Source: Isoetes taiwanensis
Taxonomy: Eukaryota; Streptophyta; Lycopodiopsida; Isoetales; Isoetaceae
DNA: 64,000 nt
NCBI GenBank assembly: GCA_021234155.1
Contig: JAJEKV010000010.1
Span: forward strand, 22,902,833-22,966,832
Direction of reading: 5' to 3'
Shown: positions 19,709 to 56,037 of the stretch, in pieces
Position numbering within the stretch: the first letter of the stretch is position 1
Layout of the letters: every line of letters starts with the position of its first letter
Notes under the pieces: model-generated
Databases searched by the model: none
Seen by the model: only the letters and a program-made list of their open reading frames with translations
What the model was told of the DNA's origin: nothing
Program-made: the position numbers and the translations under genes

Positions 19709-21350
19709 TGTGACGCTCCCTGCTAAACATACGGCGCCCGGCCGTACACTCGGCAGGAAATCCCCCGTCCGGCTCAACAACCGCACAGGCCCTCCGTCTA
19801 TCCCGCACTCTGGAACTCCCGAGGTGCGGGAAGGGGACACGAAGGTGTCTTGCGCGCCCTTCCCCTATGGGCTCCTATCACAGCGGAAGCATAAACACGT
19901 CAGAACTAGCAATACAATACCATATGCTACCTCGAGGGTAGCTCAACCGCATATCCAGAGATGCAAAGAACATAATCATATACCGTAAAACATGAGAGCT
20001 CCTACCCGTGGCTCCGACACATAGGGTAGTCGACTGACTGGATAGGCCTCAAGATAGAGCAGACCGAGTCATAACAATGGCGGGGCTGGCATAAGACAAT
20101 GGCTAGGGTTGACCACTCCATCCGCCCCTCCTGTGCATACTTTGCAGATGGGCTAGACCAAGCTGTGGCATGACTCTAACCTTCCGGATACGCAATCCCA
20201 TGGCATCACCCATCGGGACTACTCCAGGTTGCATCTCCCTGGTCCGATGAGGTAGGAAGGGTTGCATCTCCCCTTCCCGGGGTCTAGAGGCTCCACGGGC
20301 GGCTAGAGAATCGTGGCGACACCACGATTAAATACCCATCGAACCCCCAAAACAAGAGCCAAGCCGACACTTGCAACTCTTGAGAGGCGGGCGACACCAT
20401 TGCCCCCAGAGGTGTCGGACCCATGCTCGCCCACACGGTGACCGACCATAAGCCTAGCCCACTATGGGATCCCCCGAAGCCCCCACTCGGCAGGGATCCA
20501 CCCTCCATCTTGCCTCCAGCCCCGTTATGTGGTGCTGAGTCACATCATAGCCTCCATAGCCCGGTGGGTTCCTATGCACAGCCGCATATAATAGGAACTA
20601 AAGGATCTACACTAGGAGCATACTACATATGGCCCTAGGTCTCTACCCCCCTTCCCCACACAAGAGGAGCAACATGATCAACCAATATCACATGCATCAC
20701 ATCATGATCAATATCAATCATATGAACATCTTAACCTAAACATACATAGCTAACTAACAGTTAGGGTTCCTTGATTAGGGTTCAAGATGTTCAACAAAGG
20801 ATCTAGGGTGGCTCTACTCTAGACACGAATCACTAACCCATCTGGAGTGCTAACTTCCAGATGAACTAACATGAACTCTACTCAACCTACCTCCTCCGTA
20901 AGGCGCTTCCTCCCATTCCCCGGCATCTCCATGCTCCTAGGCGTGGTCCAAGGCCTGCTCCCTCTACGATCATACACACCTTCCGTGGGCTGCTGCCCCC
21001 CTGGCTAGGCTATGCCGAATCGGTGCTCAAACGGAGTTTGGGCACGCGGATGAGAGTTCAGGTGCTAGGTCAGGAAAAAGGATCTAGGGTTAGGGTTAGG
21101 GCTCATATAGGTGTGGGTCCACATGGGATGCTACGTGGCACCACTAAGATGGGGCCGTGTGGCGGTTGCCCACTAGGATAAGGCCATGTGGAAATGGGCC
21201 TTATCCTAAGGTTATCTAAGTTAAACAATTAACTTAGATGTGCACCCCTTGCCACTTATCCAAGGCATACAAGGCTACCTGGGTAGGCTTTGTATGGTGA
21301 TTCGAGGAGAATATAATGTATTTATGGCGTATATTCCCTTGAACGTCACA
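19709..21350 (-). mobile_element. Extra gypsy LTR in tandem copy A
   Basis: 1,642-bp LTR bounded by TGTGACG...CGTCACA, followed by the PPT (TTCTCCCCCTTAGG on the plus strand). It is highly similar to the LTRs at 24,059-25,700 and 35,465-37,110. It exists because the segmental duplication copied the 3' LTR. Confidence 0.85.
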
Positions 21351-23339
21351 TTCTCCCCCTTAGGACAATCTTTGTCCTCGAAGATTGCGCCTTCTGATGA
21401 CGAGCCTATCTATCCCGCAAAACAACATAAGATCATACACTTAAGTTTAATTTAAACGATCAGCTTCCTATTAAAGTTAAATGTCAAAATTTAGGCTATA
21501 TTTGTACTTATACAAAATTATATAGCCTTAACAAGGTTACTTCTTACAATAATTCAAAACATTATTATAAGAGTTATTAGGGTTCATAATTTAAATTATG
21601 GTTCCCCCCATCTTCTCGTAATGCGCCCCACCTCGAAGCTCCTTCTCACTTGCCTGCACATGGAGCACATTACGTTAGTTTAATTAATAAATTTGTGGTT
21701 TTAGGGGACCACCCCCCTTACCATACCTTGCACTCGATCATGGCCCTTTCGGATTTGAGCTTAAGGACCATTTAAGATGATCCCATCATCGCCCATGATC
21801 AAGTGCTACCTTGTACTCGGTTACCCGGTGCCGAGTACCCCGATTACCTCTATCTGCACCATATCTATTAATGTAGAGTGGTATGGTATTTCTTAATGTA
21901 GAGTGGTATTTTTGAATGAAGTTTGAACCATCTGAATGTCTTAATACTTGAAGATGTAGAGAGATGCATGGTCATATTGAGGCATGACACAAAGAATGAT
22001 TATGGTGTGATGATGTTAGGTACTAACAAATGTTTACCACACATATCCTTGTAAACAATATGCTTGCTTCCACATCGCGTGAAAGCACCTGGGTCCTTTT
22101 TTCTTTGTAGCAAAGTGTTGAGATTTTCCTTGAACCCACCCTAGTGTCTTTTCCAAAGATACTCTTTCTTACCTCTTTTCGGAGGAATGAAGAGCAAGAG
22201 CCAAGCCGGACCCAATAAATACTGACACACATAAGCCCTCGATCCGGTGCCTTCCTAGCCATGGCCCCAATGAAAAAACTGCTTTTAACATAATAATGTA
22301 GCACAATGCTCCAATCGCATCAAAGCTCCCACTTTAGCTCGAATTTTATTCCACTGAACAAACTGTGATCAATTTGAAACTGTATAGCAGCAAACATACA
22401 AAATAATTTCCACAGGCAAACAGTAGTGCGGGAATATGAAAATCGGCGCACTCTTTTTTGCACTAATGCCATGATAACTTGCCTGCATGGATAGGTTTAT
22501 TATCGAGGTCTCAGTTATTTGGGCTATAAAATGTGACATGCATACCCAAGTGTTAGAAGAGACTTGTTGATGTTGGCTGCCTCTTTAAGAGGATCACCTT
22601 ACACGCACCGGATGACCTTTGCTGTTCCAACGAAAAATGACAAAGAGGCCACTTCATTAGCATGCATTATCGTACAATAAAAGAAACGAAAAGATTAGGC
22701 ATTATGAGACCTCTCAACCCACAACAAAACAAACGGAAAAACAAACAGAGAGCTAGATAAGGCTAGACTTGCTGCGGTATGGCGTTTGCAAGTCCAATTC
22801 TCGCCCATATATTTAGGTTGGTCCAGTCTAGCTCCATGTAAGTATGACATGCTTAAGCGAGAGATATACTTCGCCAAGATGGATTAAGGTTATAAATCAT
22901 GGCCCCGATACTATGCACCTGAGAATGCTAGCAAGTGGATGCCCATCCCAATGCCAAATGCTATTCGTAGCAACCAACAAAGCTCAAATTGTTTATATTT
23001 GGAGCAAGAAGAAAAGCTTCCTTATACAAAATATAGCCAACAACCCAACTCTTCTAGCAAAGCCATGAAGAGCCAAAGAGAATTTAACTTTTGTATTCAT
23101 CTTTTATACAAACGAAAGTAGCAAAGATGGTGTATACCTCCACTGCAAAGATGCATGGTCGGCAATGAAAGTTTCCGTAGATAGGAAAAAATTATCTCAC
23201 TTCAAGAGATACTAAATGAGACCATCGATCTTGCCGGAATCGAAAACCTAGAGAAGAGAAGCCCGAACATGAGCTTGTGATCCTGATGTGGGCTCAATGT
23301 GGAGAAGGGTGTCTATCCCATACATGGTAATGGTGCCGG

Positions 23340-23500
23340 AATCGAAAACCTAGAGAAGAGAAGCCCGAACATGAGCTTGTGATCCTGATGCGGGCTCAAT
23401 GTGGAGAAGGGTGTCTATCCCATACATGGTAATGCAGGCACACACCATTACGATTGTAAATGTATAGGCATCTCATTCTGTTGGGCGCCGGAGGAGCCAT
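23340..23500 (-). pseudogene. TRAPPC1 fragment, second copy
   Basis: This is the copy-B equivalent of the fragment at 18,960-19,150, with its ATG at 23,500 and the same frame break. A 102-bp tandem duplication here repeats the DHKLMFG-coding stretch. Confidence 0.6.
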
Positions 23501-24058
23501 GCCAAATCCCCGCGCTTCTCTCCGTTTTTGCAAGCCCTAAAAATCGCCCTAAAAATCCTGACCATCGAAATTACTAAGATGGATCTCAGCCAACCAATCT
23601 AGGGCTGGATCCAAATCCAGGAATTACAACAAAACATTATAATATAAGATGTCCTGACAACATGCAAAAAAACATGAAAATTAGTAATAACCAAATCGCA
23701 AGGACAAACAGAGGAGTTTCAATATTAATAAAAACTTATAAGTGCACAAGTTCAGGCAAAGAGCAAATTTCTTTTGGAATTTTGTCTGATAGGGAATTGT
23801 TGTTGAAATGGCTGAGACATGATTTCCAGCATATCATTATTTTATCAAGAATTAGTTATAATATTGTATGCACAGAATACTCAAGTGACCTGCCGCTGTA
23901 AGATTGTCGAGGCCGAGTGCATATTGACTTGAGATTGGCAACTCACCCTGAAGAAGGTTCTCAGATATGTCAAATCATGAAAGGTTTGCTAGGTTGCCTA
24001 AGGTGGGAGGTATGCTTCCTGTCAAATTATTTTTGTTCAACCAATAAAAATGTACCGC

Positions 24059-25700
24059 TGTGACGCTCCCTAAACATACGGCCTACCGCCGTACACTCGG
24101 CAGGAAATCCCCCGTCCGGCTCAACAACCGCACAGGCCCTCCGTCTATCCCGCACTCTGGAACTCCCGAGGTGCGGGAAGGGGACACGAAGGTGTCTTGC
24201 GCGCCCTTCCCCTATGGGCTCCTATCACAGCGGAAGCATAAACACGTCAGAACTAGCAATACAATACCATATGCTACCTCGAGGGTAGCTCAACCGCATA
24301 TCCAGAGATGCAAAGAACATAATCATATACCGTAAAACATGAGAGCTCCTACCCGTGGCTCCGACACATAGGGTAGTCGACTGACTGGATAGGCCTCAAG
24401 ATAGAGCAGACCGAGTCATAACAATGGCGGGGCTGGCATAAGACAATGGCTAGGGTTGACCACTCCATCCGCCCCTCCTGTGCATACTTTGCAGATGGGC
24501 TAGACCAAGCTGTGGCATGACTCTAACCTTCCGGATACGCAATCCCATGGCATCACCCATCGGGACTACTCCAGGTTGCATCTCCCTGGTCCGATGAGGT
24601 AGGAAGGGTTGCATCTCCCCTTCCCGGGGTCTAGAGGCTCCACGGGCGGCTAGAGAATCGTGGCGACACACGATTCGTAACCGACTGAACCCCCCAAAAC
24701 AAGAGCCAAGCTGACACTTGCAACTCTTGAGAGGCAGGGCGACACCATTGCCCCAGGAGGTGTCGGACCCATGCTCGGCCCACACGAAGTGACCGACCAT
24801 AAGCCTAGCCCACTATGGGATCCCCCGAAGCCCCCACTCGGCAGGGATCCACCCTCCATCTTGCCTCCAGCCCCGTTATGTGGTGCTGAGTCACATCATA
24901 GCCTCCATAGCCCGGTGGGTTCCTATGCACAGGCTGCATATAATAGGAACTAAAGGATCTACACTAGGAGCATACTACATATGGCCCTAGGTCTCTACCC
25001 CCCTTCCCCACACAAGAGGAGCAACATGATCAACCAATATCACATGCATCACATCATGATCAATATCAATCATATGAACATCTTAACCTAAACATACATA
25101 GCTAACTAACAGTTAGGGTTCCTTGATTAGGGTTCAAGATGTTCAACAAAGGATCTAGGGTGGCTCTACTCTAGACACGAATCACTAACCCATCTGGAGT
25201 GCTAACTTCCAGATGAACTAACATGAACTCTACTCAACCTACCTCCTCCAGAAGCGCTTCCTCCCATTCCTGGCATCTCCATGCTCCTAGACGTGGTCCG
25301 AAGGCCTGCTCCCTCTACGATCATACACACCTTCCAGGGGCTGCTGCCCCAGGCTAGGCTATGCCGAACGGTGCTCGAAACGGAGTTTCGGGCACGTGGA
25401 TGAGAGTTCAGGTGCTAGGTCAGGAAAAAGGATCTAGGGTTAGGGTTAGGGCTCATATAGGTGTGGGTCCACATGGGATGCTACGTGGCACCACTAAGAT
25501 GGGGCCGTGTGGCGGTTGCCCACTAGGATAAGGCCATGTGGAAATGGGCCTTATCCTAAGGTTATCTAAGTTAAACAATTAACTTAGATGTGCACCCCTT
25601 GCCACTTATCCAAGGCATACAAGGCTACCTGGGTAGGCTTGTATGGTGACGGGTCCAGGAATATACGTATTTATGGCGTATATTCCCTTGGAACGTCACA
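24059..25700 (-). mobile_element. Gypsy 3' LTR
   Basis: 1,642 bp, ends TGTGACG and CGTCACA. The element's PPT abuts it on the internal side (25,701). On the minus strand CTATATGAG followed by CCCTAACCCTAACCC near 25,435-25,462 looks like a TATA box with a CCCTAA-type start region. Confidence 0.9.
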
Positions 25701-25716
25701 TTCTCCCCCCCTTAGG
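25701..25716 (-). promoter_or_regulatory. Polypurine tract of the gypsy element
   Basis: Minus strand CCTAAGGGGGGGAGAA directly upstream of the 3' LTR, as needed for plus-strand DNA priming. Confidence 0.85.
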
Positions 25717-26505
25717 ACAATGCTGTCCTCAGCATTGCGCTACGGTGACGAGCCTATCTATCCTGCAAAACAACATAAGATCATACACTTAAGTTTAATT
25801 TAAACGATCAGCTTCCTATTAAAGTTAAATGTCAAAATTTAGGCTATATTTGTACTTATACAAAATTATATAGCCTTAACAAGGTTACTTCTTACAATAA
25901 TTCAAAACATTATTATAAGAGTTATTAGGGTTCATAATTTAAATTATGGTTCCCCCCATCTTCTCGTAATGCGCCCCACCTCGAAGCTCCTTCTCACTTG
26001 CCTGCACATGGAGCACATTACGTTAGTTTAATTAATAAATTTGTGGTTTTAGGGGACCACCCCCCTTACCATACCTTGCACTCGATCATGGCCCTTTCGG
26101 ATTTGAGCTTAAGGACCATTTAAGATGATCCCATCATCGCCCATGATCAAGTGCTACCTTGTACTCGGTTACCCGGTGCCGAGTACCCCTAGTGCATCAT
26201 GCCCCAAGGGTTTTAAGCTAGGGAACGTCTCACGATCCCATCATCGCGCATGATCACTTTGACCTTCACCATGACCCCCCTATGGCCAGGTGTGCGACCC
26301 CCACATCGTGGCATAGAGAGCATCCGACCGATGTCCCATCATCGCGCACCATGCCTTTCCTCTCTCTCTCGCATGACCCTATTGGTCATGCGCACCTCTT
26401 GGTGCATGTTGGCCTAGAGAATGCCTTAAAGGCTTATCTCATCATCGCCCACATGTTCCAAGATTCTGGCATATGTATTCCACTAGCTAGAATACATCTG
26501 CCAGC
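25717..26505 (-). other. Gypsy 3' untranslated region with repeated CATCATCGC motif
   Basis: No ORF is seen. A motif CCCATCATCGC(C/G)CATGATCA or a shorter form occurs at about 26,130, 26,238, 26,336 and 26,438, each preceded by purine/T-rich spacers. The first copy is also in the duplicated segment near 21,782. Confidence 0.6.
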
Positions 26506-26509
26506 TAAG

Positions 26510-27300
26510 CTAACCTCCTGGCAAGTCGGGGTCGACCAAGTCAGAGACGACTCGCCCATCAAACTCCTTCATAAACTCTGGGTATTGCTTCTCCAAATCT
26601 TGCTTCAATACCCAAGTTGCGTCTTCCACGGGTAAGTGCTTCCACTTGACCAAATATTGGAGGAACTGAGACCTCCTGGTCTTCTTGAATGACTTATCAA
26701 GAAGTAACTCAGGCACAATTTCCACTTGCTCTTCCATCATTTCCAACAAAGTTGGAGTATCCAAAACCTCCTCAGGGTTAGGATTGTGCCTTTTTAATAA
26801 ACTTACGTGAAAAACCTTGTGAACTTTAAGATGGGCCGGAAGATCCAACTTGTAGGCTTGGGAGCCCACTCTCTCCAAAATCTTGAACGGACCAGCCCAC
26901 CTAGGGGCAAGCTTCTTGCAACTCCCAATCCGAAGCTTAGCTTGCTTGACCTTGATCTTCAACCACACGCTATCGCCTACCTTGAACTCTCTTACGGTCC
27001 TGTGCTTGTCGGCTACACTCTTCTGCCGACTTCTTGCTGCTAGGAGGTAACCCCTCACTTCTTCCACCAACTGCTGCATATCTCCTAGCATCTGCTGGGA
27101 CACTTCAGCCTTTGACACGGGATTGTGCCAAGTGTCCGGGGTTAAGCACTGGTACCCGTAATTTACCATGAAAGGAGACATCTGAGATGACTCCTGTTTG
27201 GCGCTATTGTAGGCGAATTCCACCAAGTGGATATACTCATCCCACTTGGACTGCTTATTCCACACAAAACTTCTAAGCATATGGAGAGCTTCGTCTGAAT
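26510..27300 (-). pseudogene. Gypsy integrase C-terminal region with chromodomain
   Basis: From about 27,300 the minus strand encodes the region after the integrase catalytic core: [30 protein letters not shown], the GPFKILERVG / LPAHLKVHKVFHVSLLKRH SH3-like stretch, and a C-terminal chromodomain (PELLLDKSFKKT, QYLVKWKHLPVEDATWV, then a C-terminal helix LEKQYPEFMKEF). Chromodomains of chromoviruses bind modified histone tails and direct integration. The three aromatic-cage positions look only partly conserved (Tyr and Trp present). It is separated from the core by a deletion near 27,290. Confidence 0.85.
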
Positions 27301-28800
27301 GGTGCTGAAGAGGTCCTGCCAAAAAGCACTCATGAACTTGGAATCTCTATCAGATATTATCTCCCAAGGCATGCCATGGAGCCTAAAAATCTCCTTCACA
27401 AATAGCTTGGCAGTATCTAATGCTGTGTCGGTAGTTCTACAAGGCACAAAATGTGCCATCTTAGATAATTTGTCTACTACGACCATCAATGCATCCTTGC
27501 CTCGAAGAGTCTTGGGAAGTCCCGTGATAAAATCCATACTTACCACTTCCCACTTCGCATTCGGCACTGCTAGAGGTTCCAAAGCTCCTGGAATTCGAAG
27601 CTGCTCCGCTTTGGTTTGCTGACACAACTGGCACTCACGAATATATCTTGCTATCTGCTTCTCCATTCCCGGCCAGAAGTAGCTACTTTGGATCTTGAAG
27701 TAGGTCTTCATAAAACCTGCATGCCCTGCTATTGGGCTGTTGTGTGTGTCATGAAGGATTAGCTTCCTTATACCTGACGATTTGGGCACACACAACTTAT
27801 GCTTATGATACAACAAGTTGCCTTCCTTCTTATAATGCTTGAAGGCTTCTCGTTCCTTATCTGTTCTAGCCTCCCTAGAGAGGCTTTCCCATACCTCCTT
27901 GAAATCACCATCGGATGGTAATGTCTCCTCAATTTTCTTGCCATACCCACTCGAAAGAGTTGATATAGCATTACAATGCGTTCTTGTTTCAAGAGGTCTT
28001 CTAGAAAGAGCGTCGGCGACCACATTCAACTTACCTGGCTTATAAGCAATCTCGAAGTCATACTCTTCTAGGAATTCCATCCACCTCCTTTGCCTTAGAT
28101 TAAGGAGTGGTTGGGTAAAGATGTATTGGAGGCTCTGGTGATCAGTATCTAACTGAAACTTCCTTCCAAGCAAATAGTGCCTCCAAATACGAAGAGCTCT
28201 TACAATAGCTAGAAGCTCCTGATCATGGGTTGGATAGCGCTGTTCGGTGTCGTTCAACTTCTTGGAATCATAAGCTATTACTCTTCCCTCTTGCATAAGG
28301 ACTCCTCCTGTCGCTATCTTACTTGCATCTGTTGCTACTATCTTATCCTTGTCTGGATCTGGCAGAACTAGCACTGGTGCTGTTGTTAAGGCCTCCTTAA
28401 GCTTTTCAAATGAAGCTTGGACATTCTCTAACCAATATGCTCTCCAGTCTTTCACCTTAACACTCTTAGTGAGGTCCGTCAAAGGGGACGCCCACTTAGC
28501 GAAGTCCTTCACGAACTTTCTGTAATAACCTGCCAGACCTAGAAAGCTTCTTACCTCCGCCACATTCTTTGGAGCTGGCCAATCCACTACTGCTTCAATC
28601 TTTGTAGGGTCGGTGGATATTCCTTCTGCCGATATGACATGGCCCAAGTACTCCACTCTTTCAGTAGCAAAGTGGCATTTGGAGAGCTTTCCATACAAAC
28701 GATGCCGCCTCAACTTTTCTAACACCCTTCTCAAATGCTGACTGTGATCTTCAATAGACTTGCTGTAGACTAGAATGTCGTCGAAGAAGACAATGACAAA
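27290..28800 (-). pseudogene. Gypsy pol: end of RT, RNase H, integrase zinc finger and core
   Basis: It begins just after the RT frameshift with the FFDDILVYS catalytic box. It continues through the RT thumb, RNase H ([45 protein letters not shown]), the integrase HHCC zinc finger ([19 protein letters not shown]) and core, with first Asp in [13 protein letters not shown] and second Asp in [14 protein letters not shown]. The reading then jumps from STIQTKLS to sequence of the following block, missing about 20-25 residues that normally contain the catalytic Glu, and the frame changes. This copy is therefore integration-dead. Confidence 0.9.
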
Positions 28801-28801
28801 C

Positions 28802-29450
28802 TCATTCTAGAAAATCCCTGAAGATGTCGTTCATGAGACGCATAAAAGTTGCTGGAGCATTCGACAGTCCAAAGGGCATTACTGTAAACTCAAAGTGACC
28901 ATACCGCGTTCTGAAGGCGGTCTTATGGATATCCTCTTCCTTTATCCTTATTTGGTGGTATCCTGACCTTAAGTCGATTTTAGAGAATACCCTTGCTCCT
29001 TGGAGCTGGTCCATCAAATCATCTGCCCTTGGCAATGCATACTTATTCTTTATCGTCTGCTTATTGAGCTGGCGATAGTCTATGCACATTCTTAAACTGC
29101 CGTCTTTCTTCTTCACGAAGAGTATGGGCGCTCCAAAAGGAGACACACTTGCTCTAATAAAACCAAGCTCGAGCAATTCCTGGAGTTGCTTCTTGAGCTC
29201 AATCAACTCCGGGGTGCTCATCCTGTATGGCGCCTTACTGGTAGGCTTAGCATCTGGTGCTAATGTGATCTCACACTCCACACCCCTATAAGGTGGTAGC
29301 TGCCGGATTTCATCCGGAAATACATCCTTAAATTCCGAAATAAGCCTTGCTACTGGCTTGGGCAACTGCTTCCCCTTTTGGTCGTTTCCATCCTGTTTAT
29401 TAGGCTCAATTGCCTCTAATCTCAAAATGTAATCCACCTTCTATACTCTT
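28802..29450 (-). pseudogene. Gypsy reverse transcriptase, N-terminal part
   Basis: Contains the RT palm motifs [34 protein letters not shown] and [16 protein letters not shown], and ends at RDFLE followed by a stop. One extra base at about 28,802-28,806 puts the FFDD box in the next frame. The RT frame is +1 relative to gag-protease and overlaps its end by about 30-40 nt. Either the family uses frameshifting or this is another mutation. Confidence 0.9.
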
Positions 29451-31172
29451 CCTTAGCTGCTTCAAAGAAATGCACTGCATAGAAGAAGCTGCCTTCTTAC
29501 CTTTCACTATAAATTTGGTGCCGTCCGGTGCTGTCATGGCGACTTCATTGCGGTCGCAGTCGATCATTGCTTTCGCTGGCTTTAGGAACTCCATTCCTAC
29601 TATAAGGTCATGCCTTCCAATTTCCATGACCTCTGCCCCCATCGACCACTTACTTCCACTAAGGTCTATGTCGAATGTGATCCTCCTCCCTTTAGTGTGG
29701 CGAATGGCGCCGTTTGCCATAGCAACTGGCCTTGGCTTAGACTTCAATACCTTGTTCTTCATTAGGGCAGCCAGCCTAGGAGAGGCGAAATTGTGAGAGC
29801 TACCTGTGTCTATCAATACTAGATATGGACTGCTATCTATGATCCCCTCAGCCGCAATGACTGTTGACTGATTTTCAATGTCATCTGACTCAATGTTTGC
29901 ACATATGTGACACTCACCATCTATAAAGTCCTGGGCCTCATGCTGATCGTCGTCCTCATCCGCTTCTGTTGGTGAATCCCAATCCATAAGCTCTGCCAAG
30001 GCTGCATGCATGACGAATGGGCAATCATGTGTTCGGTGCCCTGGTTGGAAGCACCTGAAACATAACTTCTTCTCGATGCACTCCTGTCTCTTCTCCTTCG
30101 TCAGACTGTCTAGGATACGCTTTAGTATACTGCCTCCTGATGCATTCTGCGGCTTATGGTCCCCAAAGGTTTTACCCTGAGCTCTTCCCTGCTGTTGGCC
30201 TCCTGATGGCGTAGCTGCTGATTGCTTACTCTGGTATTGCCCTTGGTACTGCCCTGAAGTTTTTTCCTTGAATGCCGACTGTTTCTCTGCTGGAGTTGAT
30301 GGTGCTTCCTCTAAACTTATAGCTTTGTCTTCGGCCTCTGCGACTGACTTTGGGTTTATTGCTCTAACAAGCCTCTTGATATTGTTGTTCAACCCTTCAA
30401 TGTAAGTTTCGACTGCTTGCCTTTCCGACACTCCGGGAACATGGAGTCTAAGTCGCATAAATTCTTCTGTATACTTCGCTACTGACAATGTACCCTGGTT
30501 CAACCTATAGAACTGCTGGATCTGCCTACTAGTATGTGACCTAGGCACATAATGTCTGCGGAAGGCCTTGCTGAAGGTTTTGAATCTGCAACTGTTCCTT
30601 TTGAGCTTGTTGGACTTGGCATAGCCTTTCCACCAGATTCTCGCTGCTCCTATCAAGTTTGCTGTAGCAACTTTCCCTATATCCTTATCCTTCATGCCAT
30701 AAGAGTTGCCGAACTCTTCCATCTCATCAAGCCAGGCTTCTGCCTCCATACCTGACCTGTCCTTCCCTGAGAACTGACCCAACTTCCTAGTCTTCCACAC
30801 ATTGCTCATAGCACTGTCAACTTTCTTTTGATAATCATCTTCCTTCCTTGCCCTGGCTCTTACCTGTGGAGTATCAGACTCACTTTCTGAGCTAGAACTG
30901 TCTTGACTGTCTGAAGTGTCTGATGAACTGGAGCTAGGTGGTGTTGGACTCCTTCTGTTTCTCCTTTTCCTCTTCCTGTCTCTGGCATTCCCCTGATTGT
31001 CCTGCCCTTCCGGCTGTGGAGCTTCCTCGATGCCTTGCTGAGGTAGCGGTGGAGGTGGTGGTGGAGCAGGTGCATATTCTTGGGCATTCATCAATGGGGT
31101 GGCCCAGTGGATCAGCTGATGCATCTGGGTCCTCATCTGGACGAGCCTTGCATTGATTGCTTCCGGCGTCAT
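29406..31172 (-). CDS. gag: Gypsy Gag-protease polyprotein (588 aa)
   Basis: The start is ATG at 31,172. Residues 1-110 are Pro- and Ser-rich with basic and acidic runs. A Retrotrans_gag-type capsid domain follows (about 120-290: [56 protein letters not shown]). A CCHC zinc knuckle [14 protein letters not shown] is near residue 370, and a retropepsin-type protease has its active site in [13 protein letters not shown] strong splice acceptor (TTAATCCTTGCAG at 31,265) lies 92 nt upstream, so gag may be translated from a spliced RNA. The ORF is open throughout, unlike pol. Confidence 0.9.
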
Positions 31173-31264
31173 ATCGTCGTTGTTGTCATCCTGATCACGT
31201 CCGAAAAGGTTCCTGGGTACCCACTGGTGATGTCGGACTTGAGAACCTGAACCTGTGTTCCTTG

Positions 31265-31280
31265 CTGCAAGGATTAATCA
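31265..31280 (-). promoter_or_regulatory. Candidate 3' splice site upstream of gag
   Basis: Minus strand ATTAATCCTTGCAG|CAAGGAAC. A similar CCCCAG|CAAGAACC lies upstream of ORF1 at 34,891. This is consistent with alternative splicing from one leader, not proven. Confidence 0.4.
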
Positions 31281-31492
31281 TCAATGCTTGTTATTAAGTT
31301 ACACAATAGTCATTTTTGCCTACAATTAAATTGTTGTTAGGTACAAAAGAAATCATATGAAAATTCCATTTGTAAGTCAAGATCATGGTAATACATTAAT
31401 TAGTATATAGGGATACATTTAATGAACTACATGATAATACTTAAGAGAGAGTTACAATGTACTTTAATTAAGTTAACAAAACAAATCTTCCA

Positions 31493-33007
31493 TCAACGAT
31501 GTCGCTTGAAGAAGTTCTTGATTTTCTTGAATCTTGTGCCCTTGCCCATGTTCTGCAGGATTCTGGCCGCCGATCCTCCCTCCAATGCTCTTGCCACCTG
31601 TGGTGCTGGTAGTTCTGGTGCAGTTGCTGCCACCACTGACAAGTGCGCATCCCTGAGGTGGCCCCTTGCGAAGTCGAGGGCATGAAGGTCTACGGATCTT
31701 TTGAAGAGAATCACATGGTCCATCCCGAAATCTATCCTGGCGTGGTGTCCAAAGCCTGAGAGTGCTATGAGGAGCGCCATGGATTCTTCACCCCTTGGGC
31801 TGAACTCCTTGTGGAAGACTATCATCTGTCCTTGGCTAAGGGCCGGAAGATAGTACCTGAGTGATTTACCCCTGTGCGGCCCCGTGCCTCCCGTACTCCT
31901 CCTTTGAGCTGCCTCGCCGAACACATCTATTGCGGTAAGATCTTCGTGGTCTCTCCACATGGTTGTTGCGTTCTCCAAATTGATGCTGCTAGATGATTCC
32001 CGCATACTCCTGGAGCGCACTGGTCGGCTGGAGCTTGGGCCTCTTCCCGGCTTGTACAACCTGCTTTGGATTTCCTGAAACTCTTCTTCTGGAATGATGG
32101 GTTCCTGCTGCTGAAACATGTACCTAATCTGTTGATACGCCTGGATGTCCGACATAGTTTCCCCTGCATAGGAGTGTCGCTCGGCTACCTCCCGTGGAAT
32201 CTCTTGGTAGGAGTAGTCGATGAAGTCACTACCCTGCTCTTGTGCCATAAGGCTTAGGAGCTCATCCATCCTGAGGCCCTCCTCTCGACAATAGGGAAGA
32301 CTGAGGATATCGGTGGCGAATATGTACTCCTCGCCGTCGATGATTACCGGGGTGAGGGCCGTGATACCCACGGGTGGCTCGAAATCCCGCCTTAGTGCTT
32401 CCTGTTGTCGAGCTAGACGCCTCTCCATCCTTCTTGCCTCCCTCATCTCCCAACTTGGGTTCTCTTCCTCCTCCTCTTCGTAATCCTGCTCAATCTGCAG
32501 CATAGGTGCTTCTGATGTGGAGCCGTAATGTTCGTATGCCGCAGTCTCGATCTCGTGGATGCTTATCTGTGCTGCCCGAGTGTCGAGAGGTGCCAAATCC
32601 AAAGGTTGAATTGACGGCTCCCCTGGTTGGTTAACTGCCCTATACTGCATGAACAATGCTAAGGCTGCTTGGCTTGAGAGGTACCTATGCCTATGATGCT
32701 TACAGGTCATGTAGTCTGGCATGTTTCTGGTTCTATCCCACAGCTTGTTCTTGCCCCTGGATCCCCCACCTATGGCTTGAGCAAGAGAGTCTAGAGAAAC
32801 CCATTTCCCTCCCCTAGGTGGCAAGCTAACTTCCGAGGGCAGAATTTGCTGATCATATTGGCAAATGATGTCAGTGTAATAGGGAGTTCTGGTCAAGGTG
32901 GCATGAAGATCAAAGAGATGATCGAAGACATGAAAGGCTTGCTCAGCAGGGAGTTCACGGATGTGATTAGAGTCATTGTACCATCTAACAAAGCTTGATG
33001 GCGCCAT
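31493..33007 (-). CDS. Extra ORF2 of the gypsy element, unknown 504-aa protein
   Basis: A full-length ORF from ATG at 33,007 to a stop at 31,493, open despite decay in pol. I recognise no family. Visible parts: an N-terminal segment with WVSLDSLAQAIGGGS and a His-rich CKHHRHRYLSS; an acidic run EEEEEE near residue 180; a basic charged helix (REARRMERRLARQQEALRRD); a Ser/Arg-rich stretch near 330-345; the motif QRRSTGGTGPHRGKS near residue 385, which resembles the histone H3 tail around K9-S10-T11; and a strongly basic C-terminus (GTRFKKIKNFFKRHR). No signal peptide or TM is seen, so it is not an obvious envelope protein. A TATA box lies about 110 bp upstream. It sits between the H3-like ORF and gag on the same strand. 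Confidence 0.75.
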   Translation of the reverse strand: MAPSSFVRWYNDSNHIRELPAEQAFHVFDHLFDLHATLTRTPYYTDIICQYDQQILPSEVSLPPRGGKWVSLDSLAQAIGGGSRGKNKLWDRTRNMPDYMTCKHHRHRYLSSQAALALFMQYRAVNQPGEPSIQPLDLAPLDTRAAQISIHEIETAAYEHYGSTSEAPMLQIEQDYEEEEEENPSWEMREARRMERRLARQQEALRRDFEPPVGITALTPVIIDGEEYIFATDILSLPYCREEGLRMDELLSLMAQEQGSDFIDYSYQEIPREVAERHSYAGETMSDIQAYQQIRYMFQQQEPIIPEEEFQEIQSRLYKPGRGPSSSRPVRSRSMRESSSSINLENATTMWRDHEDLTAIDVFGEAAQRRSTGGTGPHRGKSLRYYLPALSQGQMIVFHKEFSPRGEESMALLIALSGFGHHARIDFGMDHVILFKRSVDLHALDFARGHLRDAHLSVVAATAPELPAPQVARALEGGSAARILQNMGKGTRFKKIKNFFKRHR

Positions 33008-33115
33008 TGAGCAGAAGTGGCTATGAAAAATGGCTAATGGAGATAAGCAAAGGCCTAGGAAATCGCCAAAGGGGCTGAGAGCAACTCTGATGGGGAGAAA
33101 ATGACAAATGAGGGC

Positions 33116-33127
33116 CCTTTTTATAGA
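33116..33127 (-). promoter_or_regulatory. TATA box upstream of gypsy ORF2
   Basis: Minus strand CTATAAAAAGGG at about 33,127-33,116, some 110 bp before the ORF2 ATG. It fits a plant core promoter and suggests a separate internal transcript. Confidence 0.55.
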
Positions 33128-33298
33128 CTAAGGGTGCCTCGGGTTCCGTGCACAAAGGTTCTTGATGGGGAAGACTTCAAATCTATGGCCCTGGGTGTCC
33201 AAATGAGCTACCATGAAGTGCAATTCTAAACAACTCAAAGCAAGAAATACTACATGGCAGTTTGTTGGGTCAAAATTGGTCAATTGGGACAAAATTTG

Positions 33299-33583
33299 GG
33301 CGAAATCGGATGGCGTTGCGATAATTTGCTCTACGTGGTCGGTAGGGAGGCGTGTTTTTCATAACGCCCAATCTCGGTCAATTTAATTTCTATGAGGGGT
33401 TTTTGGGAATTTAAACATCCTAACATGACTTTTCAGCATGATTCTAACCTAACTAGCAACTTTTCTTACTTAAATTGGACACCTATTAATATCAAAATGC
33501 CGAAATCGGGTGGCGTTGCGAGAAATAGCCCTGCGTCGAGGGCGCAGACAGGTTTTTCGCAACGCGACCCGGTTTCGCCAGTT
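33299..33583. repeat. Two diverged hairpin repeats between gypsy ORF1 and ORF2
   Basis: Copies at about 33,302-33,384 and 33,499-33,583 share 'cgaaatcgg[a/g]tggcgttgcga', a variable middle, 'tttttc[a/g]' and 'aacgc'. In the second copy GGCGTTGCGA pairs with TCGCAACGCG to form a stem. The rest of 33,130-33,786 is noncoding. Confidence 0.65.
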
Positions 33584-33786
33584 TGGCGATTTTTTTGACT
33601 AATTAAGCTAGGGTGTCTAACTAATTAATTTTTCTTTCAACATTCCAATTTTAATGGTCAAAACTAAAGTAAAATTTGAGCTACTTGAACACATTTTCAT
33701 ACAAAAATTAAGGTCAGCTTACAACAAAATTTTGTATTTATGGGGAAAAGCTTAATAATTACATTAATTTTAAACAAAACTGCATC

Positions 33787-34841
33787 TCAAGGGTATTCCT
33801 TGCGGATGCGACGCGCCAAGTGTATATCCTTGGGCATCAAGGTCACCCTCTTCGCGTGGATCGCGCAGAGGTTCCCTTCCTCGAACAACTGGGTGAGCTC
33901 GGCCTCAGCGGCTACTTGCAACACCCGAGTTGTGAGCGACGTCACCCTATAGTCGGTGACGAACTCCTGCATCACCTCCCGCATGAGCCGCTCGAACGGT
34001 GCCTTCCTAATCAGGAGATTAGTGCACTGTTGAAAGTGCTTAATCTCCCGGAAGACACTGGAGCGTATCGAATTAGGCCCGTGATGGACCTTCTTCGACT
34101 TCTCCGGTGGTGGCGGTGGCGGCTTGGGCTGGTTCTTGGCTGGACGCCCCCCCTCCACGTATTGGTCGACGTTCTGCCGGCAATACCAGTCATTATACCT
34201 CTTCCACCGACGGAGGTATTCCTGGTATGCTTTGAGGCGGCGTCTGAACAGGCGCTCCTCCTTCAGGGCGAACGAACGCTCGCCCGCCTTCTGCTTCTTG
34301 ACCACCTTAGGTGGCTTGGGCCACTTTGGGTAAGGTGGTCTAGCGTCGGGGTTTGAGGGTTCCCCGGCGCGCTCGTCCTCCTCGTCTTCTTCCTCTTCGA
34401 CCTCCTCTTCTACCTCCTCCTGCTGCGGTTCTTCAATAACGACGGTCTTGCGAGGCCGGTCGTTCCTTCTCTTCGTTCTTCTCTCTTGCTGCCGCAACTC
34501 CCGCTCCCGTTCCCTCTTCTTCCTAGTGGCCCTCTCTTCTGGCCACTCAGTAACCTTCTCCTTGCCCTTCTTCTTCGGCACTGAGGGCCCGCCTCTTCTA
34601 CCTGTTCTTCGGCCTGCTCTTCTACCTGCTCTTCCACTTCGGTGTCTGAGGCCCCGAAGTGGCGGGATTCGTCGGTTCTCTGCGTGCCCGCCGATGAAGA
34701 GCTGCTACTGCTAGGCGCCCCCTCCTCAGCGTCGTGGTAGGTTTCGTCGCTGCTGCTGGAGGGAAGCTCCTTTTCCCCCTTCTTTGGTCGAAGGTGCTCC
34801 GGGATCTTCTTCGTATGTCGACCTGCTGCTGCTTGGGCCAT
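33787..34841 (-). CDS. Extra ORF1 of the gypsy element: charged protein with C-terminal histone H3 fold
   Basis: ATG at 34,841 opens a Ser/acidic region ([38 protein letters not shown]). A -1 frame change somewhere between about 34,700 and 34,580 enters a frame running to the stop at 33,787. That frame encodes a Lys/Arg-rich stretch, an acidic run ([16 protein letters not shown]), a basic coiled segment and a Pro run. Its last ~100 residues (34,095-33,790) align along their whole length with histone H3: [26 protein letters not shown] (alphaN), [15 protein letters not shown] (alpha1), [19 protein letters not shown] (alpha2), [14 protein letters not shown] (L2) and HLARRIRKE (alpha3). Loop 1 has the canonical H3 length, not the longer CENH3 form. 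The modifiable H3 tail is absent. It lies between the PBS and gag on the sense strand of the element. Confidence 0.85.
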
Positions 34842-34891
34842 CGAGAGCGTGGGTCGCTCGTTGTATTTCCTAGCTATTTGCTTGGTTCTTG

Positions 34892-35450
34892 CTGGGGAAA
34901 ACAGATGACGTAAGGCTGATCAAGAGGGATAAGGTGGAGGAAAGTTTAGAGGGAAAAATGAGGTGTCAGGGATATTCAAAAAGGAAGGGTCCCTGGGAAT
35001 ATTCTCCTACCATTAATAGGCCTACTTATTAGCCCCCCCTTAATAATTACACCATAGTACCCTTCTTATTAATATATGTTTAATTTCTAATACATATACT
35101 AAAATTCGTATTATACCTTTAGAATTTCAAATTTCCTAATAGTTTGAAGTATTAATTATGGATTTGCGCCATTTTTCACCCAGGTCTCCGATTGGCCTGA
35201 TTCTTCGACCCATTTTAGGTGAAATTTGATGCAGATGCATAATTTTTACTCCAATTTTACTAGATGGTAAATTTGACTCATTTATTCCTTCGTCTAACAC
35301 TTAACCTACTCCTGACCCACTACCTAGGAGAAAAAATTTTCCCCTATTTTCGCGGTTCATTGGTGGAAATGTTTATTTCACACCCCTATAGGCCTGTTAG
35401 ACTACTTTCATGGTTATGGTCAGTGCTAGTTCTGGGTCAACCAAGAACAT
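34892..35450 (-). other. Gypsy 5' leader
   Basis: Noncoding region between PBS and ORF1. A candidate splice acceptor TTTTCCCCAG|CAAGAACC lies at 34,891-34,892, 50 nt upstream of the ORF1 ATG. No further motif is recognised. Confidence 0.5.
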
Positions 35451-35463
35451 AGCTCTGATACCA
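35451..35463 (-). promoter_or_regulatory. Primer-binding site (initiator tRNA-Met)
   Basis: Minus strand TGGTATCAGAGCT, one base inside the 5' LTR. This is the common plant retrotransposon PBS complementary to the 3' end of tRNA-iMet. Confidence 0.9.
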
Positions 35464-35464
35464 T

Positions 35465-37110
35465 TGTGACGCTCCCTGCTAAACATACGGCGCCCGGCCG
35501 TACACTCGGCAGGAAATCCCCCGTCCGGCTCAACAACCGCACAGGCCCTCCGTCTATCCCGCACTCTGGAACTCCCGAGGTGCGGGAAGGGGACACGAAG
35601 GTGTCTTGCGCGCCCTTACCCTATGGGCTCCTATCACAGCGGAAGCATAAACACGTCAGAACTAGCAATACAATACCATATGCTACCTCAAGGGTAGCTC
35701 AACTGCATATCCAGAGATGCAAAGAACATAATCATATACCGTAAAACATGAGAGCTCCTACCCGTGGCTCCGACACATAGGGTAATCGACTGACTGGATA
35801 GGCCTCAAGATAGAGCAGACCGAGTCATAACAATGGCGGGGCTGGCATAAGACAATGGCTAGGGTTGACCACTCCATCCGCCCCTCCTGTGCATACTTTG
35901 CAGATGGGCTAGACCAAGCTGTGGCATGACTCTAACCTTCTGGATACGCAATCCCATGGCATCACCCATCGGGACTACTCCAGGTTGCATCTCCCTGGTC
36001 CGATGAGGTAGGAAGGGTTGCATCTCCCCTTCCCGGGGGTCTAGAGGCTCCACGGGGCTAGAGAAATCGTGGCGACACCGCGATTAAATAACCCATGAAC
36101 CCCCAAAACAAGAGCCAAGCCGACACTTGCAACTCTTGAGAGGCGGGCGACACCATTGCCTCAGGAGGTGTCGGACCCATGCTCGGCCCACACGAAGTGA
36201 CCGACCATAAGCCTAGCCCACTATGGGATCCCCCGAAGCCCCCACTCGGCAGGGATCCACCCTCCATCTTGCCTCCAGCCCCGTTATGTGGTGCTGAGTC
36301 ACATCATAGCCTCCATAGCCCGGTGGGTTCCTATGCACAGGCCGCATATAATAGGAACTAAAGGATCTACACTAGGAGCATACTACATATGGCCCTAGGT
36401 CTCTACCCCCCTTCCCCACACAAGAGGAGCAACATGATCAACCAATATCACATGCATCACATCATGATCAATATCAATATCATATGAACATCTTAACCTA
36501 AACATACATATCTAACTAACAGTTAGGGTTCCTTGATTAGGGTTCAAGATGTTCAACAAAGGATCTAGGGTGGCTCTACTCTAGACACGAATCACTAACC
36601 CATCTGGAGTGCTAACTTCCAGATGAACTAACATGAACTCTACTCAACCTACCTCCTCCAGAAGCGCTTCCTCCCATTCCTGGCGTCTCCATGCTCCTAG
36701 ACGTGGTCCGAAGGCCTGCTCCCTCTACGATCATACACACCTTCTAGGGGCTGCTGCCCCAGGCTAGGCTATGCCGAATGGTGCTCGAAACGGAGTTTCG
36801 GGCACGTGGATGAGAGTTCAGGTGCTAGGTCAGGAAAAAGGATCTAGGGTTAGGGTTAGGGCTCATATAGGTGTGGGTCCACATGGGATGCTACGTGGCA
36901 CCACTAAGATGGGGCCGTGTGGCGGTTGCCCACTAGGATAAGGCCATGTGGAAATGGGCCTTATCCTAAGGTTATCTAAGTTAAACAATTAACTTAGATG
37001 TGCACCCCTTGCCACTTATCCAAGGCATACAAGGCTACCTGGGTAGGCTTGTATGGTGACGGGTCCAGGAATATACGTATTTATAACGTATATTCCCTTG
37101 GAACGTCACA
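35465..37110 (-). mobile_element. Gypsy 5' LTR
   Basis: 1,646 bp with TGTGACG/CGTCACA ends. It is followed on the plus strand by the target duplicate ACCGT (37,111-37,115). It contains the same TATA-like CTATATGAG and CCCTAACCC block (minus strand, near 36,840-36,870) as the other LTR copies. Confidence 0.9.
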
Positions 37111-37745
37111 ACCGTCAACCAGGAAATAAGATCAACAAACGTTTTGCCATGAGAAGGAGATGGCTTACAAAAACTGCAATGCCTTCAGATTACCAATTTC
37201 TCTAGGAATTGGACTAGTAAAGCTACAAGCCTGTAGGTTACTGTATGCAAACACAAAGAATTGGACCATTGGATATTAAAAGCCACAGGTCTAGAAACTC
37301 ACATGTTTTCCAACTTCATAAGGTTACCAATTTGTGAAGGTAAACCTCCTGTAACGTTTGGATTGAATGACAGATCCCTGTAATATTTATGTTAGCGTGT
37401 GGCTTGCAAATAGTGATCACAAGATGAAAGGGAATTTCTTGCATACAAAGTAGTAAGACTTGCCAGTCCTCCAATAGCCTGCGATAGTGTTCCCTGGAGA
37501 CCAGAGCTGAACAAATTCCTGAAAGAGAAAGTGGCACCCCAAGGCTGACAAATCCCAAAGGATGAAGTAAAAAGCGGAATTCCATATTAAGGGCGTAGCT
37601 CTTGACTTATAGCTTCACAACATTGATGTGAGTAGAATCACATGTAACACCTTTCCATTTTGATCCGCAGCGGCCGTTGCCATTCCATTCAAAGTGATCT
37701 GCATTTTTCCAGAGTTTGGCCATTGTTTGTAGTGCAGTCACTGCA
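37111..37745 (-). pseudogene. LRR-VIII-1 type receptor kinase, 5' exons
   Basis: Minus-strand exons, each with plausible splice sites. LRRNT exon near 37,740-37,645: VTALQTMAKLWKNADHFEWN followed by CGSKWKGVTCDS. LRR exon near 37,517-37,444: FSSGLQGTLSQAIGGLASLT. LRR exon 37,378-37,311: DLSFNPNVTGGLPSQIGNLM. LRR exon near 37,215-37,143: LQACSFTSPIPREIGNLKAL. The one-LRR-per-exon layout and DLSFNPN-x-TG wording fit LRR-VIII-1 kinases. The next exon is on the far side of the gypsy element (19.55-19.70 and 23.90-24.05 kb). These ectodomains sense extracellular signals. In this copy the gene cannot make a full product. Confidence 0.75.
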
Positions 37746-40302: not shown

Positions 40303-42370
<2,068 letters not shown>

Positions 42371-43135
42371 GAGATAATATTCCACATGAATTACGCCTTT
42401 GCCAGCTCTGTGGAAGTGCTAAGCTTGAAGATGAATTGCATGTCCTGTTGGACTGCCCCGCATATATAAATATCAGAGAGAAACATCAGTTCTCTGCGCA
42501 TACACTTACAAAGTTTTTTAGCCTTCCAGGCACAACCATGGGACGATATATAGGCGATGTAATGGATTGCAGAGAGAAAAAACTTAAGATATTGAATATA
42601 GCTAAACTGGGAGAGTTGAATATAAGCCTATCAGCTTGCATAAGGAATCTCAACCTACAGGTATTATATACACATGGACAACCTAGTTCACATTAAAGCA
42701 TACGTAAACCGAGTAAAATGCATGGTGCATAACACAAGGAAAATTATGAGAAGCACCACCTGCAAGCTAGTAAATGAGACAAGCAAAAAAAATGTTGCAA
42801 AAAAAACAGAGCTTACTACCTACTGGAAAAGTTAAAGCAATTAACTAAGAAGAAAACATAAAATATTATGAACAAGAAAGAGTAATAGAGAAAGCAACAA
42901 AGCTCCAAATGGAGATTCATAAGGAAAGGAAGATTGGAATAAAATAGAAAACAAAAATTATGGGCACAAAAGCAAAACGAAAGATGAAAAGAACCTACCC
43001 TGTCACATCACAAAAATAGTGCCGGGTATTTCCATCTGAGGATGCATTAGACGAATGGTTGTATGGATGATGTGCTTGCGGGATGTCTTATAGACCTGGC
43101 AGTCTCACAAACATAATAAATAAAATTTCATTTCT
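42371..43135 (+). mobile_element. LINE copy 2, 3' fragment with a 400-bp interruption
   Basis: C-terminal knuckle CQLCGSAKLEDELHVLLDC (42,400-42,470), broken at about 42,634 by ~400 bp of unrelated AT-rich sequence. It resumes at 43,033 with SEDALDEW and the 3' stem-loop AGACCTGGCAGTCT plus CATAATAA, then a CT/CCTC tail (43,136-43,189). Confidence 0.7.
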
Positions 43136-43189
43136 TTCTCTCTCCCTCCCTCCCTCCCTCTCTCCCTCCCTCCCTCTCTCTCTCTCTGG
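43136..43189. repeat. CT/CCTC microsatellite at the LINE copy 2 3' end
   Basis: Alternating CT and CCCT units, immediately followed by the next LINE fragment. Confidence 0.9.
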
Positions 43190-44265
43190 ATTTGATGCCT
43201 CCTTTGACTATTTCGAGCCTGCTGTAGATCCGACCTGCAGCAAATCAACTTGCACCAAGCTGTTTTTGAACTGGTCTTGTGTGATCTGGTCGGAGCAAAA
43301 ATGTTTTATAGATCTGGCAGACGTAATCAATTAACTCAACGGCGCTGGAGGTTAGCAGGAATCTTGACAGTTGCGGCATGGTATGATTCTGGCCAGTTAG
43401 CAACATGGCAAATCTTTCAAACAAAATTCTCATTGTCTCGATGGGACAGACCTATTTGGCAAAAGGTTGCTAGTACTCTGCCATTGGTTGCTCCAGAGGC
43501 TATTGAAATGTGCATGTGGGTTTCCCACCAGAGTATTCATGAGCATAGGCTTGTGAATTCTATGTATAGGCTGCTTGTCAATAGTGATATCCTTCCGCCA
43601 TCCACTAGGTGGTCCCTTCAGCTTTCATCTCCTAATTGGAGGCGTATGTGGACTTGGGCTTGGGATAAACTACTCCATCCTAAGGTGGTTGTGCTTTGGT
43701 GGCAGATTCTTCACAGATGTCCTCGTGTGAACGTGCTTGTCCACAGATTTGATCCTCGAGTGTCAGCACTCTGCCCACTGTGCAAGCAAAGAGACGAGAC
43801 CATTGAGCATTGTTTCTTTTTATGTGTTCATCTCCAGCCTGTTTGGTCTTGGCTGCTTTCTCTTTTTCATGTGACATTGACAAGTCAGCAAGTGCTTCTG
43901 GCTGTCTATCCGGATACTTGGAATAAGTTGTGGAGCCAAGCATTTCATTTAGCATCAGGATGGTTGTTATTGTCCATCTGGAAGCGCAGAAGACTGTCTA
44001 TCTTTCAGGGTTTGGATATTCCTCTTGCAGTTGTCCTCCAAGACGCACAAGCTAGAATTGTTAAGGCTTACCATTGCTCTTCGCTTGCTCCTGCCAAGCG
44101 ACAGTTGATATTTGAGTCCTATTTGAGTGTGTTGTCTTATGCATAGGCTGGTGGTTCTACTCAGTGGATCATGATTATCCTCTGAGACATTATTCCCACC
44201 TCTGCATTTGTATTTTGCTTTTTGGCTTGGAGTTTCAATAAAGTTTGTCGTCCTTCAAAAAAGGA
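43190..44265 (+). mobile_element. L1-type LINE 3' end with zf-RVT domain
   Basis: The ORF at 43,250-44,146 carries the plant LINE C-terminal zinc-binding reverse-transcriptase domain: WTWAWDKLLHPKVVVLWWQI, LHRCPRVNVLVHR, then CPLCKQRDETIEHCFFLC. It ends with AATAAA (44,237) and a short A run. This is a different LINE family from its (CT)n-tailed neighbours. The 5' part is absent. Confidence 0.8.
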
Positions 44266-44267
44266 TT

Positions 44268-48368
<4,101 letters not shown>

Positions 48369-48438
<70 letters not shown>
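48369..48438. repeat. (CT)n microsatellite
   Basis: Pure CT array at the 3' end of LINE copy 4; a SINE starts immediately after it. Confidence 0.95.
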
Positions 48439-48441
<3 letters not shown>

Positions 48442-48645
48442 CGTTTGGTCTAGTGGTAATACACTAGTTCCTTAGCAATGTGCTCTCGAGTTCGAGACCG
48501 CCCAGAATCGCACTCGGTACTGCTGGGGGTCAAATCCCAACAGACGCAATGTAAGGTGGTTGGGGGCAGGGCCCAACCAAGCAATGTAGTGTGGTGTGTG
48601 GTCACATGTCCAGTTGGATGCTGCCTAGTGGCGTGACATTAAAAA
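48439..48645 (+). mobile_element. tRNA-derived SINE
   Basis: Starts GGCGTTTGGTCTAGTGGTAA, containing a Pol III A box (TGGTCTAGTGG). A B-box-like GAGTTCGAGACC lies about 40 bases on. A ~120-bp unrelated body follows, ending GACATTAAAAACTC, with an (ATCT)n tail. Acceptor ends do not pair as in a real tRNA and no anticodon arm folds well, so it is not called a tRNA gene. Confidence 0.7.
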
Positions 48646-56029: not shown

Positions 56030-56037
56030 TCTAAAGG

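Follow-up and report, generated by a model that had tools for sequence, protein, structure and literature searches.

Results

Structure of the element

The window, a 64,000-nucleotide stretch of the Isoetes taiwanensis genome, contains on its minus strand a 13-kb LTR retrotransposon of the chromodomain Ty3 type (Table 1). As in chromoviruses, the LTRs, primer binding site (PBS), gag, protease, reverse transcriptase, RNase H and integrase are found in the Ty3 order, and the C-terminus of the integrase carries a chromodomain. We take the PBS to be of the initiator-Met type. The element is flanked by a near target site duplication (acggt/gcggt), in which four of five bases agree. The window copy is decayed, since pol is split over three ORFs.

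The element differs from chromoviruses in two additional ORFs, located on the same strand between the leader and gag. One encodes a histone H3 and the other is referred to here as ORF2; to our knowledge, no H3 gene has been described in chromoviruses. Extra ORFs before gag characterize the Ogre/Tat class, whose members have a dual RNase H and lack a chromodomain, whereas a chromodomain is present here. Among the 17 ORFs of at least 80 aa that overlap 25000-37500, Pfam detected neither a second histone nor a transposase family such as that of hAT elements; LTRs are present instead. Read by eye and unaligned, the window chromodomain has only W45 among Y24, W45 and Y48, the cage aromatics of group I (HP1-like) retrotransposon chromodomains (cage positions and the definition of group II as given in the available text of PMC3350952).

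Table 1 Features of the LTR retrotransposon in the window, listed from the 5' LTR.
Feature	Position	Strand	Basis and remarks
5' LTR (TG...CA)	35465-37110	minus	97.7% identity to 3' LTR; ends read in sequence
PBS TGGTATCAGAGC	35452-35463	minus	read in sequence, just after 5' LTR
H3 tail tip ARTKQIARK	34866-34892	minus	8 of 9 residues identical to ARTKQTARK; start codon lost in window copy
Upstream part of N-terminal arm	34410-34841	minus	different frame from H3 domain in window copy
H3 ORF, 264 aa (rest of charged, partly helical arm and H3 domain)	33787-34581	minus	ORF list, Pfam
Histone H3 globular domain, 88 codons (H3 residues 46-133)	33796-34059	minus	Pfam, solved H3 chains, alignment
TATA-like TATAAAAA	33118-33125	minus	read in sequence, about 110 nt upstream of ORF2
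ORF2, 504 aa	31493-33007	minus	ORF list; no family above Pfam cut-off
gag and protease	29406-31172	minus	Pfam Retrotrans_gag, RVP_2
Reverse transcriptase, first part	28802-29437	minus	Pfam RVT_1
RNase H and integrase	27163-28734	minus	Pfam RT_RNaseH, Integrase_H2C2, rve
Integrase C-terminus and chromodomain	26510-27322	minus	Pfam Chromo, E 2e-11, residues 204-255
Polypurine tract	25701-25713	minus	read in sequence, immediately before 3' LTR
3' LTR	24059-25700	minus	pair alignment spans 24053-25700, 97.7% identical

The surroundings contain several further features. A 4.35-kb tandem duplication (17620-21841 and 21842-26189) takes in the 3' LTR and the end of the element interior, with identities of 97.6% (18984-21841 against 23334-26189) and 93.9% (17620-19084 against 21842-23332). 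Adjoining the 5' LTR, a stretch at 37120-37300 appears by eye to encode leucine-rich repeats, which suggests that the element may sit within a receptor-like gene. Ty1/copia remains with RVT_2 and Retrotran_gag_2 matches in Pfam occupy 53444-58420 on the minus strand, bracketed by 197-bp direct repeats (52845-53041 and 58483-58679; 98.5% alike). The region 42000-48500 contains ORFs of a LINE-like reverse transcriptase and zf-RVT, along with a simple-repeat tract. Two ORFs of 243 and 247 aa at 60590-62125 have no Pfam match above cut-off; the latter resembles by eye a relative of tyrosine recombinases.

The window copy contains a histone H3 domain

An H3-like protein had been placed by the initial annotation in an ORF on the gag-pol strand, between the PBS and gag. 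The domain is confirmed: PF00125 matches residues 151-260 of the 264-aa ORF (E 2.3e-30; 105.8 bits against a curated cut-off of 26.4), which rules out chance similarity, and solved H3 chains match the ORF with an E-value of 1.2e-29. The proposed extent of a single ORF from 33787 to 34841 has to be revised. The open H3 frame covers 305 codons, up to about 34704, the upstream part of the arm lies in another frame, and the gene begins further upstream, at the tail tip. The window copy of the H3 gene is thus broken: its start codon is gone, and the domain is in a different frame from the tip and the initial part of the arm.

Compared with 88 distinct public H3 domains, the window domain has the majority residue at 55 of 88 positions and differs at 33. 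Conservation is uneven, with 15 of 17 positions kept in loop 2 and alpha 3 and 18 of 30 in alpha 2. The GC3 of the domain is 0.78, and its two non-coding neighbours have a GC content of 0.38 and 0.39. The AlphaFold2 (AF2) model of the window protein is poor (mean pLDDT 68, loop 2 below 50); it predicts long helices in the arm, at residues 14-41 and 95-142 of the 264-aa ORF. The 50 matches listed by Foldseek for this model are all nucleosome entries (best E 8.7e-07), with bad superpositions on H3 (rmsd about 9-19 Å). A search of viral contigs with the window protein and a search of plasmids returned nothing useful.

The H3 gene is shared by copies across the genome

We searched the genome (1,658,258,908 bases in 1110 pieces) with the 264-aa window protein. 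At least 145 loci carry the H3 ORF, the window included, at E 3.5e-123 or better; these are the best 145 of 21338 candidates, and 121 of them are free of stops. Because only the best candidates were scored, this and the other genome-wide counts are lower bounds that favour intact copies. We examined the next 20 copies by score, with about 1.5 kb of flank on each side. The H3 ORF is accompanied by the leader in all 20 (one with only 61 nt of it), by an LTR end in 18 and by ORF2 in 19. The ORF therefore lies at the same place in other members of this family, family A, and the H3 segment is not a separate host pseudogene inserted in one copy. A single-copy host pseudogene is ruled out by both the number of loci and this constant position.

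A search with gag returned at least 74 loci. H3 lies within 6.5 kb of gag at no fewer than 20 of them, and H3 or ORF2 at no fewer than 31; the other 43 have neither among the matches listed. Four of these 43, picked by hand, all contain H3-ORF sequence upstream, three as domain pieces in two frames and one as the start segment only in the stretch inspected.

An H3 tail tip and a long arm precede the domain

The protein was initially thought to have discarded the H3 tail, and we also read it at first as a tail-less H3. This was dropped after the tip ARTKQTARK was found at the true N-terminus. The 20 other family-A copies all begin with MAR(T/S)KQT; ARTKQTARK, with K4 and K9, is exact in 16 of them, and the remaining four share 6-8 of its nine residues. 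On the reverse strand of the 21 stretches, the best match to the nine-residue string is 4-6 of 9. Residues 5-9 are exactly QTARK in 17 of the 21 family-A copies including the window. Counts of the tail motif were 15 of 61 family-A stretches when stops were ignored, 10 of 61 within open frames and 2 of 12 for family B (described below); 40 of the 61 family-A stretches were too short to reach the N-terminus.

The distance from tip to domain is 271-293 codons in the 20 copies, and both are in one frame in 15. The family-A protein is therefore an H3 with an interrupted tail, consisting of the ARTKQTARK tip, an arm of ~260-280 residues, a KK.H stretch and the globular domain. The long charged region of the initial annotation is present, placed between tip and domain, with the tip retained N-terminally of it. 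An uninterrupted tail of ~40 residues with K14-K27 is not found, H3 residues from about 11 to 35 being missing.

The tip is conserved at the protein level, with a pS of 0.489 and a pN of 0.054 over its nine codons in the 21 copies. Position 10, a serine in H3, is variable (Y in 6, P in 5 and F in 5 of 21, others in the rest).

The H3 domain is under purifying selection

The H3 domain is free of indels in all 61 copies compared, the window included, and one copy contains a stop; as 40 copies were hand-picked from stop-free rows, the stop count is not representative. After removal of this copy for the domain and of two copies with short open frames for the arm, the NG86 method gave a dS of 0.99, a dN of 0.067 and a dN/dS of 0.068 for the domain (60 copies), and a dN/dS of 0.118 for part of the arm (58 copies). 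The maximum likelihood values are 0.064 for the domain and 0.144 for part of the arm. This agrees with the initial suggestion that the protein was under selection in the active family. The domain ratio depends on divergence: it is 0.034 for pairs with a whole-ORF dS above 1.2, and 0.088, 0.213 and 0.089 in the three bins with the least divergence. A higher ratio in closer pairs is the pattern expected of selection in the active lineage that is relaxed after insertion.

In 17 of the 20 comparable copies, pN relative to the window is 0.02-0.07 and pS is 0.07-0.47. The window copy by itself does not convincingly indicate selection; in a neutral simulation of this copy, 4.9-6.8% of runs reach its substitution score and 1.0-1.2% its conservation of loop 2 and alpha 3.

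A second family and a subfamily carry the H3 gene

Searching the genome with canonical H3 returned at least 139 loci. Fifteen are canonical host H3 genes (E <= 3.2e-77), and the remaining 124 or more are H3-like, with 49-86% identity, and in many the open frame is 300-567 aa long. Twelve of the 124 were examined with their flanks: sequence homologous to the window LTR is present in 11, a PBS in 9 and an ORF2 homologue in 11. These loci represent a second family, B, with the identical order LTR-PBS-H3-ORF2. In the one copy followed further, a gag-like match lies downstream, just under the curated cut-off (E 8.8e-05).

Family-B proteins retain KPHR(F/Y)(R/K)PGTVALREIRK(F/Y)Q, or a sequence near it, and a near-canonical globular part. 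One of them (L083) has 409 aa and an arm of 310 residues. The start is MA.TK(S/T) in 8 of the 10 sequences displayed, and the two others begin with MAITKR and MTNTKS; none of the displayed proteins has the K9 motif at its N-terminus. The arms of A and B have little similarity; when low-complexity filtering is switched off, matches to the window protein start within the arm, at residues 72-142, in 8 of 12 family-B loci.

Subfamily A2 (L099-L105) has LTR homology at all seven loci and ORF2 at five; a family-B protein matches A2 loci in the domain only. Its tips are of the ARTKQTYRK type, with 7-8 of 9 residues at six of the seven loci. A7 is replaced by tyrosine at five of seven; a change at A7 should alter recognition by HP1-type readers. 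Canonical residues 11-30 are absent from the displayed stretch before the domain in 13 family-B and 7 A2 ORFs.

The domain dN/dS is 0.024 in family B (13 copies), 0.051 in A2 (7 copies) and 0.014 in the host H3 genes (12 copies). At least two LTR-retrotransposon families of one genome have H3 as a regular gene under selection. In all element groups, 35 of the 88 domain positions have the host residue, including L92, L100, L103, F104, N108-R116, T118, K122, D123, L126, I130 and the alpha 2 core, as well as K64 and R69. We assume that these positions take in the H3-H3' bundle and the contacts to H4 and to DNA, the latter presumably being K64, R69, K115, R116 and T118. R63 and R83 are outside the 35. 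Family A is variable in loop 1 and at F84 and, unlike family B, has lost K56 and K79.

ORF2 accompanies the H3 gene

ORF2 was found at 85 or more scored loci, the window included. The ORF2 proteins of A and B are just 23% identical (E 2e-14), which indicates that the H3-ORF2 arrangement is old. ORF2 is less constrained than the H3 domain, with a dN/dS of 0.238 for 23 of 26 copies, some of which contain stops. The TATA-like box upstream of ORF2 suggests a putative internal promoter.

No family was found above cut-off by Pfam for ORF2 of A and B or by NCBIfam for ORF2 of A, and a protein search in which the best 8000 candidates were scored returned no homologue outside this genome at E <= 0.01. 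The best PDB match (E 0.031) covers a charged stretch and was judged to be due to chance, and the single-sequence AF2 model has a pLDDT of 34.8. The C-terminus of ORF2 is basic.

Related proteins in a fern

Five public proteins of Adiantum nelumboides, encoded on different contigs, combine an H3 end with a long, unlike N-terminus. They share H53, M75 and Y82 with the window; these residues occur in 6, 1 and 1 of the 88 public domains. At position 99, the Adiantum proteins have Q and the window E, in place of the Y of 87 of the 88. The Adiantum proteins do not start with the tip ARTKQTARK. Their number suggests that their genes are located in elements.

The window and Adiantum proteins form a clade with a support of 99/88, or 98/94 when more copies are included. 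Family B forms its own clade (100/100). In the AU test, neither a single clade of A, A2, B and Adiantum (p-AU 0.602) nor the placement of B with host H3 (p-AU 0.66) is rejected. Both constrained trees scored slightly above the free tree, indicating that the tree search was incomplete. The tree covers 10 of the 60 family-A copies, with distinct domains only, and has 88 columns and long branches; the grouping of the element H3s constitutes modest evidence. Kin of these elements are likely to exist in a fern.

We also considered an origin from centromeric H3. Like the element protein, CENH3/CENP-A is a divergent H3 whose N-terminal part is long and unusual. In contrast, loop 1 of the element H3 has canonical length and no insertion, and the element sequences are separate from the CENH3 group, represented by two sequences, so this origin was rejected.

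Five proteins from ENA contigs (P0004, P0016, P0053, P0057 and P0094) each combine an H3 at the C-terminus with a long, charged N-terminal region, and form their own clade (99/93). They are possibly another element-borne H3. A search of viral contigs with P0057 found no encoded relative.

Discussion

Histone H3 is a regular component of a chromodomain Ty3 lineage, located between the leader and gag and followed by ORF2, and it is under strong purifying selection. That the gene is borne by the element and selected there is, in our judgement, close to certain. In our literature search, mostly of open-access text, we found no LTR retrotransposon described as carrying a core histone gene. The accessible part of a review of viral histones mentions neither retrotransposons nor retroviruses (PMC9145170), and the word histone does not occur in the main text of a review on extra ORFs of plant LTR elements (PMC7264820) or of two papers on fern genomes (PMC9477723, PMC12868710).

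For histones in mobile elements, the closest precedent is the H3-like H3L ORF of a hAT DNA transposon family in Pyrenophora tritici-repentis, with 26 very similar genes (PMC3538342). That case concerns a DNA transposon of a fungus, with no long-term selection reported in the text available to us (PMC3538342), whereas the genes described here belong to LTR elements, with many diverged copies and a domain dN/dS of 0.02-0.07. Among plant LTR elements, the closest case of a retained host-type domain is the AlkB (m6A demethylase) ORF in Ty3/gypsy elements of one orchid genus; the same study screened 121 angiosperm genomes and describes 15 extra domains, among which the accessible text names no histone (PMC9289625). 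The AlkB ORF and the element H3 are each a host-type additional ORF retained in an LTR-retrotransposon family; AlkB is an enzyme acting on RNA (PMC9289625). The bracovirus histone CpBV-H4 is a virus-borne core histone that also has added N-terminal sequence; according to the text available, this tail-extended H4 is incorporated into host nucleosomes and changes expression (PMC5423620), a precedent for our preferred reading below. It differs in being an H4, with 38 added residues, from a DNA virus of wasps, and in its reported incorporation (PMC5423620).

Plant transposon silencing is written largely on histone H3 tails. LTR elements of plants in particular are described as silenced with H3K9me2 and H3K27me3 (PMC12786077). 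The H3-bearing elements may exploit histone chemistry to their own advantage. Our preferred reading, which we hold tentatively, is that the element H3 would pair with host H4 and enter nucleosomes or tetrasomes on or near element DNA. The arm would hold the K4/K9 tip far from the nucleosome core, with the K14-K27 part gone. The displaced tip could engage or titrate readers and writers of the H3 tail, away from their normal use, and chromatin containing the element H3 would become harder to silence. The 35 kept domain positions argue for pairing with H4 and for a place in nucleosomes or on chaperones. Selection on the tip suggests a role for readers or writers of the H3 end, and the free variation of position 10 suggests that the K9-S10 switch is unimportant. 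A single tip chemistry does not suit every group, since family B lacks the K9 motif, the A2 tips resemble ARTKQTYRK and the Adiantum proteins start differently. The kept K9 could equally be methylated and lead to silencing. The loss of K56 and K79 from family A, the exclusion of R63 and R83 from the 35 conserved positions and the poor AF2 model also count against this reading.

Next likeliest after this titration of tail readers and writers, though we regard it as doubtful, is that the element encodes both a reader, the integrase chromodomain, and its ligand, the QTARK-tipped H3, so that nucleosomes with element H3 would mark landing sites at which integrase or Gag docks. The presence of the chromodomain in the same element, the exact QTARK in most family-A copies and the long helices predicted in the arm are consistent with such a pair. 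Against it stand the reading by eye of just one of the three cage aromatics in the chromodomain, W45 (see PMC3350952, as far as accessible), and the absence of the K9 motif from family B. It is unlikely that the protein acts as a decoy, binding H4 or the H3-H4 chaperones and preventing normal nucleosomes from forming on new element DNA while not being stably incorporated itself: the core of alpha 2, loop 2 and alpha 3 is best kept, and loop 1 and F84 are variable in family A, as a decoy might allow, but the presumed DNA contacts are also kept, and a decoy has no need of a selected tail tip.

Still less probable is a role in packaging, in which the protein would condense element nucleic acid in particles. 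Histones do occur in some DNA viruses, as described in the accessible text of PMC9145170 and PMC11500106; H3, however, requires H4, and no second histone was detected by Pfam among the ORFs of the element region. We give almost no credence to an ordinary host H3 pseudogene, or to host H3 genes lying in or near elements by chance. The genome does contain 15 canonical host H3 loci, but the element gene is at the same place in 20 of 20 copies and has a domain dN/dS of 0.064, a second family has the same order, and H3-ORF sequence lies upstream at all four hand-picked gag loci.

A broader scenario, speculative and in our view rather improbable as a whole, would join the reader-ligand pair described above to the fern data. 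An old plant chromovirus lineage, present in both a lycophyte-like plant and a fern, whether inherited or spread horizontally, may have taken up H3 once and carried its own H3 variant along with ORF2. The chromodomain reader and its ligand, the K4/K9-tipped H3 with its long arm, would be used as a pair to mark, find or protect the chromatin of the element.

The presence of the H3 gene raises the questions of how it persists in an error-prone element and whether movement between lycophytes and ferns occurred. The element H3s constitute a ready natural set of H3 variants for nucleosome and reader tests. A long-kept element H3, with the K4/K9 tip selected and the remaining tail rebuilt, would be a move by the element at the level of chromatin.
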